From: Sorangium aterium
GTDB taxonomy: Bacteria; Myxococcota_A; Polyangia; Polyangiales; Polyangiaceae
Assembly: GCF_028368935.1 (NCBI RefSeq)
Contig: NZ_JAQNDK010000007.1
Location: forward strand, 248,001-312,000
Reading direction: 5' to 3'
DNA length: 64,000 nt
In this document: positions 24,031-30,454 of the stretch, in pieces
Numbering within the stretch: position 1 is the first letter of the stretch
Layout of the letters: each line of letters opens with the position of its first letter
Made by a program: the position numbers and the translations under genes
The notes under the pieces: generated by a model
Databases searched by the model: none
Told to the model about the DNA's origin: nothing
Seen by the model: only the letters and a program-made list of their open reading frames with translations

Positions 24031-26268
24031 TCAGGGACTCGCCCTCCCGATGCGCAACTCCATCAACGTCGTGTCGTTCCACCGCGCCATCACCGGTGTG
24101 CTGCCCTCAACCCATGTTGAGACCGAGTGCGTCTTCGAGGAGGCCGCACGGGCGCGCAACGTCGCCTCGGGGCGACCCGTGGCCTGCGCGAGCAGCCGGC
24201 GGAGCCCCTCTTCGTTGCCGTAGAGGGACCGCACCCCCGGCGTTGCCCCGACCACGAAAAGGCCGGAGCAGACGCTTCCGACCTTCGCCGCGTACACCGA
24301 CACGCCCTTCAGCTCGGGCCACCCGGAGCTTGCGGAGCCCGCATCCCGCTCGAGGAGCTCGTCCACCACGGGCACCGGTGCACCGATCAGGACCACCTTG
24401 CCGAGCTCGGCGCGCGCCCAGGCCGACGCTGCGTTTGCCTTTTCCTGAACCTCACTGTCGCCTCGAGCGGCCTTTTGCGCCGTCACAGCGAGCTTCGACA
24501 ACGATCGAAGCCAGCGTACTCGGGCGAGGAGATCGCTCGCGGGGACCGTTCGGGTGTCGAGCTCTTCCGTCACCTTCCGCCGCGCGCTGTCGAGCATGGC
24601 CTCGCGCTCCGGAGAGCTGCGGGCCGCCTTGGCCCCCCTCGCTGCGGCGAACCGGCATATATCGTCGGAACAGGCGACTCCCTGCGCTTCGAACGCGCGC
24701 GCCTCGAGCTCGCCGCGCTCCGGGGCATCGGAGAGCTGCAACGACCAGCGTTTGAGCAGGTCGACGGCATCCGCAACGCGGTTCGCCGCGAGCGCTGCCT
24801 CGATTGCCTCGATGCGTGCATGCTGCGCGTTTGTCTTGGCCCGGCCTGCATGGCTGCCGTCCCGCGACGCGACCGCGTCCAGTTGGTCGAGACGCGCATC
24901 TCCAGAGAGCCGCTCCGCCTCTGCGAGACGGAGCTCGTCGATGGCGTCCGCTAACTTCTCGGAAGGCGCCGTAGCTTCGAGAGCCTCCGCGACGACCCGC
25001 GCACGGTCGAGATCTCCCGCGGTGACTGCATGCTGAAGCTCCTCCGTGCTTGGCCTACCAAAATAAGCGACCACGGGACAGAGCAGAAACGCCGCAGCGC
25101 TGATCACCGTCGTGACCTGCGCGATGATGCCAAGCGGCCAGAAGCGGACGCCGGGGCGAAGCGCGCGAAGCAGCCCTCCGACTCCTACGATCGCCGTGGC
25201 CATGCCGGTCAACGAGGAAAACGCGATGGCTCGGTTGACCGAGCGAAAATAACTGGTCGGGCCGAGAAGGGCCGACATGTAGCAGGCACCGCCGATGAGC
25301 AGCACCAACGAGGCGAGCCCCCAAAGCACCAGACGGCGACGGATAGGGCCCACGGCTGCTGGCGTCGAGGCCCCGGCGAGGCTCGCGCCGGACAGCACGA
25401 CGGTCCCCTCGGCACCACACATCTCGTAGTGCACGTCGCGCCGGAGGACGCCAAGGCGGAGAAGTTGCTGCGCCCGGATCCGCTCGATCCGACGATCGAG
25501 CGCGGGCGTCTGTCTTCGCGCCGCAATGTCGTCCTCCGGCGAGAGTGTTCCTCGGGCGATGCTCCCCTCGGCCTCCACCGAGGCGAGCCGCACGAACGCC
25601 TCCAGGTCGGATGGCCCGAGGAACCGGTCCTCCAGCAGCTGAGGGTGTGCGTGCACGATGGGGCTGTCGGTGGAGAGCTGTACGACAACCCGCGCACTTT
25701 CTCGGTATGTCCACCAGACGAGCTGCCGGCCGCTCCCCGAGCAACCCACGCATGTGATCGTCCCCTTGGACAAGCATTCGCCGCACCCTACGGCGCCGCC
25801 GCCGCGACATACCGAGCAGTTGATGTACTTGCTTGACTTCTTGTAATGCTTCAGGACCTTCCCGCTGCCGGAGCAGTTCCCGCAGGGTTGCCTGCCGCTG
25901 CCCCTGCACGCTGGGCACGGGCCGATGCCGCTGCCGCTGCACGACGCGCAGCGATCGACATGTTCCGTACGCGTGCGCAGCTCCTCCATCGTGCCGCTGA
26001 AAGGATCGAGCGACGCAGGATCCTCAGGGCTCGCGCTGCGGCTCCTACGGTCGTGGGTGGGGATGCGCTGCGGGACGAGGTCGCGGCGGATCACCGTCGT
26101 CGCGACGCGCGTGATCACCTCGTCGCGCTCGCTCACGGAGGTGATCAATTCTTCGATCCGTCGGGGTGCACCAAACTCGGTGCGTGCCCATGCTCGCAGC
26201 GCAGCCGGCAGGTCGACGCTCGCGGTCGGGCTGCCGTTCTCCTCGTCTCGGTACGGCGTTGGAGCCAT
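24031..26268 (-). CDS. Membrane protein with six DnaJ-type CxxCxGxG zinc motifs
   Basis: A 745-residue protein. Residues 107-176 hold six CxxC pairs, mostly as CxxCxGxG (CASCSGSG, CPACRGSG, CGNCSGSG, CSVCRGGG, CGEC, CVGCSGSG), the zinc-binding cysteine-rich module of DnaJ, but there is no J domain. Two to three membrane spans follow (about 315-335, 350-370, 380-405), then a 340-residue helical region rich in Ala/Glu and a short C-terminal globular part. The function is unknown. It is divergent from hxsA with 152 bp between the starts, so co-regulation with the His-Xaa-Ser genes is possible. It is not a known core member of that system. Confidence 0.75.
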   Translation of the reverse strand: MAPTPYRDEENGSPTASVDLPAALRAWARTEFGAPRRIEELITSVSERDEVITRVATTVIRRDLVPQRIPTHDRRSRSASPEDPASLDPFSGTMEELRTRTEHVDRCASCSGSGIGPCPACRGSGRQPCGNCSGSGKVLKHYKKSSKYINCSVCRGGGAVGCGECLSKGTITCVGCSGSGRQLVWWTYRESARVVVQLSTDSPIVHAHPQLLEDRFLGPSDLEAFVRLASVEAEGSIARGTLSPEDDIAARRQTPALDRRIERIRAQQLLRLGVLRRDVHYEMCGAEGTVVLSGASLAGASTPAAVGPIRRRLVLWGLASLVLLIGGACYMSALLGPTSYFRSVNRAIAFSSLTGMATAIVGVGGLLRALRPGVRFWPLGIIAQVTTVISAAAFLLCPVVAYFGRPSTEELQHAVTAGDLDRARVVAEALEATAPSEKLADAIDELRLAEAERLSGDARLDQLDAVASRDGSHAGRAKTNAQHARIEAIEAALAANRVADAVDLLKRWSLQLSDAPERGELEARAFEAQGVACSDDICRFAAARGAKAARSSPEREAMLDSARRKVTEELDTRTVPASDLLARVRWLRSLSKLAVTAQKAARGDSEVQEKANAASAWARAELGKVVLIGAPVPVVDELLERDAGSASSGWPELKGVSVYAAKVGSVCSGLFVVGATPGVRSLYGNEEGLRRLLAQATGRPEATLRARAASSKTHSVSTWVEGSTPVMARWNDTTLMELRIGRASP

Positions 26269-26420
26269 CCCGTGGAAGCGTACCTTATATCCAGGCGATC
26301 CGTGTAGAGCCCACGAGCCCCCTTACGACTTGCCGCCGCACCGGCCTCATCGGAGCACGCTCGCGCCACCAGCTACGTGGCCGTCTTGACTCCGCGGCCT
26401 TACCCCGAGGATACTGCGGT

Positions 26421-26933
26421 GTGCCTCCGCGGTCCCCCCTCGTCGCCCTCGGAACGGCCGTCATGGCGATCATCCAGGGAGCGACATCGTCGAACACGCT
26501 CGTCCCGAGTGCGCTCGCGCAGGCGCCTCGAAGGCCCGACGACGACGGCGACGACGACCCGCTGCTGCTCACCGCGCCCGGCATCCAGCAGCCGATGTAC
26601 CTCGCCCATCGCTCCCATCGCTCCCATCAGTCGCATCGATCTCACAGCAGCCACTACTCCGGCGGTCACGGGTCGGGCTGGAGGGGGTCGTACGAGGAGC
26701 CTGCACCTGAGCCTCCGCCCCCACCGCCGAAGCCGGCCGTCGTGTCGCTCGTGGCCTATCCTGGTGGGAGGATCTTCGTGGATGGAAAGCTCGTGGGCAC
26801 GGACTCTACGGCGACGCTCGTCCTGGCGTCGGGCACACACGAGGTCCGCGTGGTGAACCAATTCGTTGGCGACACGAACACCCGCATTTTTCTGTCCGAG
26901 GGGCAGACAGGCATGATCGTGATCCAGTGGTAG
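26421..26933 (+). CDS. hxsA: His-Xaa-Ser repeat protein HxsA, predicted modified precursor
   Basis: A 170-residue product from the GTG at 26421 (GAGG about 10 nt upstream). An ATG at 26463 is the alternative but would shorten the signal peptide. The N-terminus is a hydrophobic signal ending at SALAQA. An Asp-rich stretch follows (38-47), then six tandem His-x-Ser triplets at 63-80 (HRS HRS HQS HRS HSS HYS), a Pro-rich hinge (94-103) and a C-terminal PEGA-like beta-domain (PGGRIFVDGKLVGTDST, 114-170). HxS tracts of this form define HxsA, the presumed substrate of the two radical SAM proteins encoded downstream. The chemistry is not established. Confidence 0.9.
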   Translation: MPPRSPLVALGTAVMAIIQGATSSNTLVPSALAQAPRRPDDDGDDDPLLLTAPGIQQPMYLAHRSHRSHQSHRSHSSHYSGGHGSGWRGSYEEPAPEPPPPPPKPAVVSLVAYPGGRIFVDGKLVGTDSTATLVLASGTHEVRVVNQFVGDTNTRIFLSEGQTGMIVIQW

Positions 26934-26937
26934 TCGC

Positions 26938-27288
26938 ATGAAGACCACGAGGGCCGATACAGGTGCGCCGTTCGCCTTCCGAGATGGACGTATCGCGTTC
27001 ACCGTCGATCTCCGTGCTTACCGCCTTGCGGCCGTGCAGAAAGCCGCCTACCGGATGGCCGCGAAGTGCACCGCCGTGATTGGCCAGATCGATGATCACT
27101 CGCTCGACGTTACGCTCGCCTTTCCGCCTGCGACCGGCGAGCAGGCAGCGCTCGAAGTAGCGAGGGTCTTCTTTCAGGAGCTGCTGGATCAAGAGCTTCG
27201 GGAGAAGGTCGGGGAAGAGACAGTATCGCTTCGGACGCTCATCCTCGCGCATGCCTTCTCTCGCGCGCGCATTCCTCCTCGAGGATGA
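26938..27288 (+). CDS. hxsD: His-Xaa-Ser system protein HxsD
   Basis: A 116-residue protein starting 4 nt after the hxsA stop. It carries the features of HxsD: a strand-rich N-terminal part, QKAAYRMAAKCTAVI in the middle, LLDQELRE at 82-89 (matching the family's LLNDYxLRE pattern) and the C-terminal helix TLILAHAFSRARI. HxsD occurs only with the hxs radical SAM genes. It may act as a precursor-binding or scaffold protein, which is inference. No catalytic motif is visible. Confidence 0.9.
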   Translation: MKTTRADTGAPFAFRDGRIAFTVDLRAYRLAAVQKAAYRMAAKCTAVIGQIDDHSLDVTLAFPPATGEQAALEVARVFFQELLDQELREKVGEETVSLRTLILAHAFSRARIPPRG

Positions 27289-27292
27289 CATC

Positions 27293-28741
27293 GTGCATCC
27301 AGTCTTTCAGCCGAGGAGCGCTTACGCACCACGCGCGGGATATTGCCTCCTGCCTCTCAGACTCGGCCATCTTGACGGAAATACCTACATCGTAACGAAC
27401 GACGTCGGAGAGTACGTTCGCCTTGAGCGCGACGAGCTCGTCGCGTTCGTCGAGCGGAGGCTCGCGAAGGACACGAACGCGTATAGAACGCTGAAATCCC
27501 GCCACTTTCTCTATGAAGATGACTCTTCTGTTGCCTTTGATCTGCTGGCGTTGAAGTACAGGAGCCGCGTGGATCGTATCGCGGAGTTCACGGGGCTCCA
27601 CATCTTCGTCGTCACGCTGCGGTGCGATCACTCATGCCAGTATTGCCAGGTTTCCAGGCAATCAGAGGACGTCACCCAGTACGACATGACGGAGGCGCAC
27701 GCCGACAAGGCGCTGGACCTCGTCTTTCGGAGCCCGAGCGAGCGCATCAAGATCGAGTTTCAGGGGGGCGAGCCGCTCCTTAATTTCCCCTTGGTCTGTC
27801 GCATCGTGGAGCGCGCGCAGGAGCTTAATCAGCGCCATCGACGCGATCTCCAGTTCGTGATCACCTCCAACCTGTCGCGCCTGTCAGACGACGTCTTGTC
27901 CTTTTGCCACGAGCACGGCGTGTACTTGTCAACCTCGCTGGACGGGCCGGCCGACTTGCACGATTCCCAGCGGCCAACGCGCGGGGGCGGCAGCTACCAG
28001 AAGACGATTGATGGGATTCACAGGGCGCGTGAGGTCCTCGGACCGGACCGGGTCTCGGCGCTCATGACGACAACGCCGAGGAGTTTGCATCGCGTTCACG
28101 AGATTATTGACGAGTACGTGCGTCTCGGATTCCACGGCATTTTTCTTCGAAGCCTGAGCCCGTACGGATTCGCAACGCGGAGCCTCGTCAAGCGATATGG
28201 TGTTGAAGACTGGCTCGATTTCTACAAGCGTGGCCTTTCGCACATCCTGCGAATCAATGCTGGAGGCTACCTTTTGCGGGAGGACTACACGACCATCCTG
28301 CTTCAGAAGATATTTTCTCCCCTGGGCTCTGCATACGTCGATCTACAGTCCCCAGCGGGCATCGGGATTGGGGCGCTCGTGTACAACTACGACGGGGCGG
28401 TGTACGCCTCGGACGAGGGGCGCATGCTGGCCGAGATGGGCGACCAGACCTTCCGCTTGGGACACGTCGATCAGGAGGACTACGAGGCCCTGATGACATC
28501 TGAAGCACTCCTCTCGTCGCTGAGCGACACCATGCTCGAGGGTAGCCCCATGTGCGCCGATTGTCCTTTCCTTCCCTATTGCGGCGCGGACCCTGTATTC
28601 CACCGGGCAACGCAGGGCGATGCCGTTGGGCACAAGGCATTCAGCTCGTTCTGTGCGAAACAGATGGGCGTATTGCGGCACCTCATCGGGCTCCTCGAGA
28701 CCGACGCTGAAGCGCGGGACATCCTGCTGCGCTGGGTGTGA
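27293..28741 (+). CDS. hxsB: His-Xaa-Ser system radical SAM/SPASM maturase HxsB
   Basis: A 482-residue protein if started at the GTG at 27293, which has GAGGA 7 nt upstream and leaves the same 4-nt spacing as the other junctions. The ATG at 27251 would add 14 residues and overlap hxsD. The radical SAM cluster ligands are C111, C115 and C118 in RCDHSCQYC, with the SAM-binding GGEP (FQGGEPLLNF) following. The C-terminal SPASM-type cysteines (CADCPFLPYCGAD) bind auxiliary iron-sulphur clusters. SPASM enzymes modify peptides; this one is predicted to act on HxsA. Confidence 0.93.
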   Translation: MHPVFQPRSAYAPRAGYCLLPLRLGHLDGNTYIVTNDVGEYVRLERDELVAFVERRLAKDTNAYRTLKSRHFLYEDDSSVAFDLLALKYRSRVDRIAEFTGLHIFVVTLRCDHSCQYCQVSRQSEDVTQYDMTEAHADKALDLVFRSPSERIKIEFQGGEPLLNFPLVCRIVERAQELNQRHRRDLQFVITSNLSRLSDDVLSFCHEHGVYLSTSLDGPADLHDSQRPTRGGGSYQKTIDGIHRAREVLGPDRVSALMTTTPRSLHRVHEIIDEYVRLGFHGIFLRSLSPYGFATRSLVKRYGVEDWLDFYKRGLSHILRINAGGYLLREDYTTILLQKIFSPLGSAYVDLQSPAGIGIGALVYNYDGAVYASDEGRMLAEMGDQTFRLGHVDQEDYEALMTSEALLSSLSDTMLEGSPMCADCPFLPYCGADPVFHRATQGDAVGHKAFSSFCAKQMGVLRHLIGLLETDAEARDILLRWV

Positions 28742-28745
28742 ACTC

Positions 28746-29900
28746 ATGTTGGTGAAGCTATCGGCGCGAGGCTTGCGAGCATTGTCTTCGACGTCGCACA
28801 CGCCGTTTATCGCGCGGGTCTCGGAAGATCTTGCGCTTTCCGAGCCGGAGCGAGCGAACAACCTGCTTCTACTGTCTGCTGACGCGCCTGAGTTGCCGCT
28901 GGGCTTTCGAGGATACCTCCTGCGCCGAGGGATGGGAATTGCGGATCGGAAGGACGTTTATCTCCTCGGTTCGGAGCACCATTACCTGCGGAATGGGGAC
29001 GTGGTGCGGATTGACCCCGCGCGGGGCTCGGTCTCGGCGCTTTACAGAGCGGCCTCCCGGTCGAACACGTTCCTCGTTACCGAGCGTTGTGATAACTTTT
29101 GCCTGATGTGCTCTCAGCCGCCCAAAGATCACGACGACAGCTGGCTCGTGGACGATCTCGAGCAGGCTATCCCGTTGATTTCCTCGGAGGCCACAGAGAT
29201 CGGGATCACTGGCGGTGAACCAGCTCTTCTCGGTGAGCGGCTCGTCCAGCTTCTCGTGCTTCTCCGCCGATGCCTGCCTCGCACGAGCGTGCATGTGCTC
29301 TCCAACGGTCGGAGGTTCGCCGACGGCGGCTTTGCGCGTTGCATAGGTGACGTGAAGCATCCGGACCTGATGTTCGGCATCCCGCTCTACTCGGATCTAC
29401 CGGAGGAGCACGATTATGTCGTGCAGGCCAGGGGAGCCTTCGACGAGACGGTGCGGGGGATCTTGAACCTGAAGCGGCGACGTGTTCGCGTGGAGCTGCG
29501 GTTTGTGATCCATCGCGAGACTGTCGTGCGGATGCCCGAGTTCGCACGGTTCGTTGCGAGGAACCTGACCTTCGTGGATCACGTTGCGTTCATGGGCCTC
29601 GAGCCCGTGGGGTTCGCAAAGGCCAATCTCGAGGCGCTGTGGATTGATCCGGTTGACTACCAGAGCGCCCTTGGCGAGGCCGTCATGACGCTGGAACGGG
29701 CCGGATTGATGACGTCGATCTACAATCATCAGCTATGTGCTCTGGACCCGAGGCTACATCGGTTTGCGCGAAAGAGCATTTCGGACTGGAAGAACGTCTA
29801 CCTCGAAGCGTGCGAAGGATGCCGTCGGAAGGACGACTGCGGTGGCTTCTTTGCGTCTGCCACGGTGAAGCGCAGCAGGGGCATCGTTGCCTACACTTGA
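28746..29900 (+). CDS. hxsC: His-Xaa-Ser system radical SAM maturase HxsC
   Basis: A 384-residue protein starting 4 nt after the hxsB stop. The radical SAM cysteines are C115, C119 and C122 in ERCDNFCLMCSQPPKDHDD, the family signature, with GITGGEPALLG as the SAM-binding strand. The C-terminus has a further cysteine group (ACEGCRRKDDCGGFF) that may bind another cluster. An N-terminal domain of about 105 residues precedes the barrel. It is the second of two paired maturases predicted to modify the His-Xaa-Ser repeats of HxsA. Confidence 0.93.
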   Translation: MLVKLSARGLRALSSTSHTPFIARVSEDLALSEPERANNLLLLSADAPELPLGFRGYLLRRGMGIADRKDVYLLGSEHHYLRNGDVVRIDPARGSVSALYRAASRSNTFLVTERCDNFCLMCSQPPKDHDDSWLVDDLEQAIPLISSEATEIGITGGEPALLGERLVQLLVLLRRCLPRTSVHVLSNGRRFADGGFARCIGDVKHPDLMFGIPLYSDLPEEHDYVVQARGAFDETVRGILNLKRRRVRVELRFVIHRETVVRMPEFARFVARNLTFVDHVAFMGLEPVGFAKANLEALWIDPVDYQSALGEAVMTLERAGLMTSIYNHQLCALDPRLHRFARKSISDWKNVYLEACEGCRRKDDCGGFFASATVKRSRGIVAYT

Positions 29901-29974: not shown

Positions 29975-30454
29975 ATGACCGACTTGCTCGTCGCCCTGCG
30001 GCCGCTCGATGCCACCGAGCTCGATGCGTTCGTCGAGCTCGTGATCTCTTCGTACGCGGGCGAGCGCGCGAGCGCCGTGGACGCCCGACCTCCGGACGCG
30101 CAGCGCAACGCGCGCTCCCAGGTGGAGGCGCTCCTGCCGCAAGGGCTCGGCACCCCCGACCACCACCTCTATTCGGTGCTGGAAGGGAATGCCGTGGTCG
30201 GGCACCTCTGGATCGGGATCACCAGCGTGGACGGGTTTCGAAGCGCGTTCATCTACGATATTCATCTGCGTGAGGACGCCCGCGGCCGAGGCCTCGGGCG
30301 CCGGGTCATGGTCCTCGCCGAGGAGGCCGCCTGCGGGCTGGGCGCGCGGGATATCGAGCTCCACGTCTTCGCGCAGAACACGCGGGCGCGGCGGCTCTAT
30401 GAGTCGCTCGGCTACCGGATCACGAGCCTGAGCATGAGAAAGCGCCTCGGTTGA
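29975..30454 (+). CDS. GNAT-family N-acetyltransferase
   Basis: A 159-residue protein covering one GNAT domain. The acetyl-CoA binding motif A is REDARGRGLGRRVM, followed by the beta5 region ELHVFAQNTRARRLYESLGY. It transfers an acetyl group from acetyl-CoA to an amine; the substrate is unknown. It starts 74 nt after hxsC in the same direction, so it may share the transcript. There is no evidence that it belongs to the His-Xaa-Ser system. Confidence 0.85.
   Translation: MTDLLVALRPLDATELDAFVELVISSYAGERASAVDARPPDAQRNARSQVEALLPQGLGTPDHHLYSVLEGNAVVGHLWIGITSVDGFRSAFIYDIHLREDARGRGLGRRVMVLAEEAACGLGARDIELHVFAQNTRARRLYESLGYRITSLSMRKRLG

Follow-up and report, generated by a model that had tools for sequence, protein, structure and literature searches.

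The His-Xaa-Ser (Hxs) system, with its families TIGR03976 to TIGR03979, was described by Haft and Basu (as known through PMC9062424). In that paper, on radical S-adenosylmethionine enzymes, maturation is 'putatively' dependent on HxsB and HxsC (PMC9062424), and the portions of the literature covered by our search name neither a product nor a biological role for the system. Here we examine an Hxs locus in a window of 64,000 nucleotides (the whole stretch of DNA that was analysed: contig NZ_JAQNDK010000007.1, positions 248,001 to 312,000) from the 13.47 Mb genome of Sorangium aterium. Four intact genes in the order hxsA-hxsD-hxsB-hxsC occupy positions 26421-29900 of the window, all on the forward strand. 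This bears out the original prediction for the locus, which had also held that the chemical product of such systems is not established, a caution in keeping with the literature that was searched. HxsB (27293..28741; 599.7 bits against TIGR03978, cut-off 370) and HxsC (28746..29900; 394.3 bits against TIGR03977, cut-off 267.9), both radical S-adenosylmethionine (SAM) proteins, pass their curated cut-offs, as does the small conserved protein HxsD (26938..27288; 67.4 bits against TIGR03976, cut-off 50), which is the sole match to its model in the genome at E <= 0.001. The Hxs system itself is therefore known; what is new is an HxsA that ends in a PEGA-like domain and is paired with a membrane protein encoded by the neighbouring gene, here called X. 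With moderate confidence, we favour a reading in which these five genes form an envelope system, HxsB and HxsC modifying the core of an HxsA that would be exported and docked to X through its PEGA-like domain.

Measured against the system as represented in NCBIfam, the locus is alike in that HxsB, HxsC and HxsD exceed their cut-offs, a protein with tandem His-x-Ser (HxS) triads is present and the order is A-D-B-C; it is unlike in that its HxsA falls short of each of the four HxsA cut-offs, ends in a PEGA-like domain and has X as its partner. The original prediction had taken all four proteins for members of the HxsA to HxsD families, and this holds for HxsB, HxsC and HxsD, whereas HxsA scores only 44.7 bits against TIGR03979, over model positions 13-98 of 190. 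Because the cut-off is 121.65, the protein is not filed under that family, and its scores against the HxsA3, HxsA2 and HxsA4 models (29.4, 24.4 and 21.9 bits, cut-offs 65, 48 and 55) are likewise too low. Judged by these alignments, HxsA is recognisable, yet it is outside all four named HxsA families. An HxsA on an Aeromonas plasmid (L091; 230.6 bits against TIGR03979) has a similar plan of N-terminal part, HxS core and C-terminal envelope-type domain; in that protein, however, the domain is the peptidoglycan-binding PF01471 and the gene order is D-B-C-A. The window HxsA has no PF01471 match and carries the PEGA-like domain in its place. An HxS-repeat protein of Hymenobacter, scoring 72.5 bits against TIGR03979 and so below the cut-off, also ends in PF01471, and we count this other envelope tether of the Aeromonas and Hymenobacter proteins in favour of an envelope reading. 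The HxsA2 proteins (NF038296; Paraburkholderia L090 and Nostoc L089) share the tandem HxS core and the position of hxsA upstream of D-B-C, but at 95-96 aa they end just after the core. Indeed, the core forms the very end of HxsA in 11 non-polyangial loci (L037-L042, L044-L048) as well as in the two plasmid HxsA2 proteins. The exchange of a peptidoglycan-binding for a PEGA-like domain offers a concrete lead on the role and place of the widespread Hxs system.

The gene hxsA (26421..26933, forward strand) encodes 170 aa between a GTG start and a TAG stop. Its product was first taken for a short exported HxS-repeat protein; the repeat stands and export gains support, but the additional PEGA-like domain had been overlooked. 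A signal-peptide-like N-terminus with a short hydrophobic stretch by hydropathy precedes Q34 (26421..26519), where cleavage may follow the residues A-L-A; an A-x-A-Q motif occurs in eight of the nine HxsA proteins of PEGA type that we recovered (genomes G000, G407, G391, G394, G365, G388, G344, G387 and G066). This signal-like N-terminus supports export of HxsA. The HxS core (residues 63-80; 26607..26660) reads HRS HRS HQS HRS HSS HYS, six triads in a row, with one more standing apart. Even three triads in a row were reached by none of 100,000 residue shuffles of the protein. A proline-rich linker (residues 94-105; 26700..26735) leads to the PEGA-like domain (residues 114-163; 26760..26909). 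Across the nine PEGA-type proteins, every His and Ser of the six aligned triads is invariant and the middle residue varies; the run is six triads long in seven proteins and seven long in G365, and in G066 a run of five is joined by one separate triad. Residues of the PEGA part are conserved among the nine as well. All nine match PF08308 when scanned singly (E <= 1), and homologues from Sorangium (L034, 23.9 bits) and Polyangium (L035, 21.2 bits), both slightly trimmed, pass its gathering score. The two loci recur in our collection as L113 and L115 (identity checked, for L035 over 8,000 bases) and each is counted once. All nine also match TIGR03979 (best E 8.5e-16); judged by their E-values, the other eight should likewise lie well under the HxsA cut-offs.

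Gene X (24031..26268, reverse strand) encodes a membrane protein of 745 aa and adjoins the gene for PEGA-tailed HxsA in all nine loci. Six CxxC motifs (residues 107-176; 25741..25950, reverse strand), most of which we take to be of the DnaJ type CxxCxGxG, are followed by three membrane helices predicted from hydropathy (residues 313-331, 348-366 and 379-397; 25078..25332, reverse strand) and by a large C-terminal region; a Pfam search assigned X to no family. Three arginines before helix 1 and three between helices 2 and 3 weakly favour a C-terminus on the outside, although the two arginines in loop 1 count the other way. In five loci (G000, G407, G391, G394 and G066) X lies divergently upstream of hxsA and the order is A-D-B-C. 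In the other four (G365, G388, G387 and G344) hxsA follows hxsC and X lies downstream of it on the same strand, the contig of G344 ending inside hxsC so that hxsD and hxsB are beyond view. X thus adjoins hxsA at either end of the cassette and therefore goes with hxsA, not with a fixed cassette end. The window shares with its Sorangium relative (81% identity) and with two Polyangium genomes (77%) a stretch of DNA from about 24030 to about 29909, which contains X and hxsA-D-B-C only, without a gene for a protease or an exporter. By this comparison the conserved unit is one of five genes, divergent X included, and the complete four-gene cassette claimed in the original prediction keeps its Hxs identity but not its boundary. 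The GNAT gene at 29975-30454 was considered as a further member and rejected, since the common block stops at about 29909. When the window and two relatives were compared in three pairs, the ratios of nonsynonymous to synonymous substitution (dN/dS) were 0.14-0.18 for hxsA, 0.18-0.29 for hxsD, 0.09-0.13 for hxsB, 0.13-0.16 for hxsC and 0.23-0.26 for X. On these ratios, all four hxs genes are under purifying selection.

A search for X in the 183 genomes of the order returned 18 with a match at E <= 1e-12. The ten strong matches (E < 1e-100) are the nine genomes with PEGA-tailed HxsA and G254, in which the reading frame of X goes on without a break through a proline linker to a PEGA-like stretch. 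G396 likewise has an X with a C-terminal proline-containing linker and a PEGA-like stretch, its similarity weaker than that of G254, and in G397, where X is cut by the end of a contig, a second contig opens with an X-like end and then a PEGA-like stretch. These fusions share with the window an X homologue (about 26-35% identity) and a PEGA-like stretch, which here comes after X; they differ in that the PEGA part belongs to X itself, and none of the three genomes holds an HxsB over the cut-off. Absence of HxsB is firmest for G254, because that genome is 95% complete. The PEGA part thus belongs to X in some genomes and to the protein encoded beside X in others; a split of this kind is a classic indication of joint function, and X and PEGA-tailed HxsA may well work together. 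Weaker matches, all within the first 572 residues of X, occur in G339, G340, G249, G283, G284, G286 and at a second place in G066; the stretches examined around four of them (G339, G340, G249 and the second place in G066; L151-L154) held no convincing PEGA match. These weaker relatives perhaps belong to a broader membrane-protein family that bears DnaJ-like fingers.

In the five-gene envelope system that we favour, HxsA would be made with an N-terminal export signal, and HxsB and HxsC, helped by HxsD, would modify its six His-x-Ser triads in the cytoplasm; their action on the core very likely precedes export. The protein would then be exported, and its C-terminal PEGA-like domain would dock with the extracytoplasmic part of X, or with a surface common to both, so that the modified core is tethered in the envelope and not released as a peptide. 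The PEGA domain probably holds HxsA at X: the constant neighbourhood of X and hxsA-PEGA in nine of nine loci and the existence of X-PEGA fusions both support docking, and a topology of X with its C-terminus outside is compatible with it. Also in favour of the five-gene system are the family scores of HxsB, HxsC and HxsD, the invariant His and Ser on either side of a variable middle residue, and the grouping of the PEGA-type HxsB sequences beyond a single branch. Matured HxsA is thus probably kept in the envelope, with X as its named partner, and the nine genomes with the hxsA-PEGA/X pair and the three with a fusion provide a test set. An alternative, which we regard as rather unlikely, is that this is an ordinary Hxs cassette whose HxsA gained a PEGA domain by chance, that X is an unrelated neighbour and that the modified peptide is released to act outside the cell. 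PEGA-like stretches are indeed common, for a query running from the HxsA core to its end matched 32 of the 183 genomes of the order (E <= 1e-4), 23 of them beyond the nine and with no more than single HxS triads near the match. Other loci have short HxsA proteins in which the core is C-terminal, and the PEGA-type HxsB sequences fall on one side of a single branch of their tree, so that one event could explain them. Chance acquisition accords poorly, however, with an X-hxsA pair kept in all nine loci though hxsA may stand at either cassette end, with X-PEGA fusions in three genomes, with the conservation of PEGA residues and the low dN/dS of hxsA, and with a conserved block that holds neither a protease nor an exporter gene.

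Several results weigh against the envelope system. The PEGA-like domain of the window scores 19.0 bits against PF08308, below the gathering score of 20.8, and the HxsA of G066 is without A-x-A-Q. Among the fusions, the PEGA stretch of G254 reaches 14.2 bits in Pfam, again below the gathering score, and that of G396 rests on a tblastn match (48% over 52 residues, E 1.7e-9); with completeness at 81% for G396 and 88% for G397, the absence of HxsB from these two genomes is provisional. Four of the six genomes of the window's genus lack both HxsD and PEGA-tailed HxsA, so the system is dispensable. Among the best 25 of 63 families, moreover, HxsB stays under the cut-off of the cyclophane-enzyme models (YhhB 70.9 bits of 445, GrrM/OscB 49.2 of 310, FxsB 48.3 of 370, AmcB 44.2 of 425, XyeB 38.4 of 450), and its top score outside Hxs is 107.4 bits of 340, for the ranthipeptide maturase PapB. 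Finally, the model of HxsB (mean predicted local distance difference test, pLDDT, 75) has as its top structures by Z those of anaerobic sulfatase maturases (Z 30.3-30.8, root-mean-square deviation (rmsd) 3.1-3.3, 351-353 residues aligned; the best at Z 30.8, rmsd 3.1 and 352 aligned), so that oxidation of Ser can be imagined just as readily.

The last two of these points bear on the chemistry of the core. In alignments of 16 HxsB and 16 HxsC sequences, the CX3CX2C motif and four C-terminal cysteines are invariant in each, which upholds the original prediction that all radical SAM cluster cysteines are present. In HxsB the radical SAM cluster is C111-x3-C115-x2-C118 (27623..27646) and a probable auxiliary cluster is formed by C421, C424, C430 and C454 (28553..28654); in HxsC the corresponding residues are C115-x3-C119-x2-C122 (29088..29111) and C331, C356, C359 and C365 (29736..29840). 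Our leading guess, a tentative one that is possible at most, is a carbon-carbon cross-link that joins the His ring with the beta carbon of the Ser two residues on, at a cost of 2 Da per triad. Triceptide enzymes are reported to join residues i and i+2, namely Phe-C4 to Ser (MscB), His-C2 to Ala (HaaB) and His to Arg (PMC11002830), which makes a His-to-Ser link a reasonable first guess. The likeness extends to an aromatic residue i with a partner at i+2, matched here by His-x-Ser across the core as a pattern only, and to SPASM radical SAM enzymes (PMC11002830). The differences are that HxsB is below every cyclophane-enzyme cut-off, that Hxs uses two radical SAM enzymes together with HxsD, and that the cross-link is, in our case, a guess.

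A serious rival, because HxsB is below the cyclophane-family cut-offs and its closest structures by Z are those of Ser/Cys-oxidising enzymes, is that HxsB oxidises the Ser in a formylglycine-like manner, or epimerises residues, instead of joining His to Ser. Serine is a known target residue of the sulfatase maturase class. We nevertheless consider this rival rather unlikely. The sactipeptide maturase 5wgg, which forms thioethers, follows at a small distance by Z (29.4, rmsd 3.3, 343 aligned) and ranks first in Foldseek (E 1.8e-15); a common fold shows no function; and the His is as invariant as the Ser, which suggests that both residues belong to the unit. Less probable still is a role of the HxS core in binding metal, such as copper or zinc of the envelope, with HxsB and HxsC merely tuning it. 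The core is rich in His and tandem, and the six CxxC motifs of X are probably metal-binding; the Ser, however, is conserved as strictly as the His. A bolder extension of the envelope system, to which we give little credence, would make PEGA-tailed HxsA a lasting, radically cross-linked fixture of the envelope, with every His stapled by HxsB and HxsC to the Ser at i+2, the core a short rigid rod, the PEGA domain plugged into the outer part of X and the DnaJ-like fingers of X inside. Were this true, Hxs would build part of a transmembrane machine and not a peptide natural product, and the genomes with an X-PEGA fusion would have the machine but not the rod.

PEGA-tailed HxsA, called on the basis of its core, its PEGA part and its position beside hxs genes, was found in nine of the 183 genomes of the order. 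Near the 23 further matches to the core-to-end query, HxS triads never come two in a row, and we therefore regard these as other kinds of PEGA-like proteins. A profile of the nine, run against 377 sampled genomes of the phylum, gave six matches, four of them true (G000, G391, G394 and G066) and none an additional case outside the order; G254 and G057 were rejected, as their PEGA part alone matches. No tblastn match to PEGA-tailed HxsA was obtained among 72,556 plasmid records at E <= 0.01. Among 29 HxsB proteins placed in a tree, the eight sequences of PEGA type are set apart by a branch with support of 100/100; a Byssovorax locus, with hxsA lying off its contig, falls on their side. Within the PEGA-type group the D-B-C-A and A-D-B-C loci form sister sets; hxsA has therefore probably moved, with X staying beside it. 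The locus of G365 (L116:2525-2836) contains two HxS proteins: a short form precedes hxsD, and the PEGA-tailed form follows hxsC. The A-D-B-C order as such is not special, since every one of the 11 non-polyangial loci with an identified hxsA (those listed above) has it.

Each of the three junctions A/D, D/B and B/C of the cassette measures 4 nt, as originally predicted, for D/B on condition that hxsB begins at the GTG at 27293. This start is supported because the Sorangium and Polyangium relatives begin HxsB one codon upstream, with an ATG where the window has ATC; an alternative longer frame from the ATG at 27251 overlaps hxsD. For hxsA, the Sorangium and two Polyangium relatives have a GTG within one codon of 26421. 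The hexamer CTTGAC at 26385-26390, about 30 bases 5' of the hxsA start, is kept in the window and three relatives. It could be a -35 element, the -10 element then lying so near the GTG that the mRNA might be nearly leaderless; the alignment of the four sequences, despite the conserved hexamer, revealed no clear promoter in the gap between hxsA and X. The model of HxsD (pLDDT 84.8) is predicted to have a beta-alpha-beta-beta-alpha fold with a long last helix. Foldseek returned nothing for it at E <= 0.001. A second look gave 1yz7 as the best structural match (Z 7.5, rmsd 2.6, 73 aligned), which is within the range of common arrangements, and a profile of HxsD against PDB sequences gave one weak match (E 0.15). 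No recognition element of ribosomally synthesised and post-translationally modified peptides (RRE) was recognised for HxsD among the best 50 matches of each structure list. The N-terminus of HxsB, modelled with modest confidence as three strands followed by helices, had no match among PDB sequences.

Beyond PEGA-type loci, HxsB exceeds its cut-off in 97 of 282 sampled genomes of the phylum. No relative of HxsB was confirmed in viral contigs. The Hxs system seems to travel on plasmids, 511 plasmid records matching HxsB by tblastn, 392 of them over at least 80% of its length; 325 of the plasmid matches are from Klebsiella and 346 are typed as conjugative. Myxococcota also have a second kind of Hxs locus (L049, L051-L057, L061 and others), where HxsB is accompanied by several HxsC-like radical SAM proteins and often by two tandem HxsD-like frames. 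In connection with this type, nine of the 30 small loci L004-L033 (among which L005 is the window's own) encode roughly 8 to 17 HxS triads in one peptide, for the most part HGS, with Trp at its end. The HxsB of this second kind lies on a separate side of the 29-protein tree.

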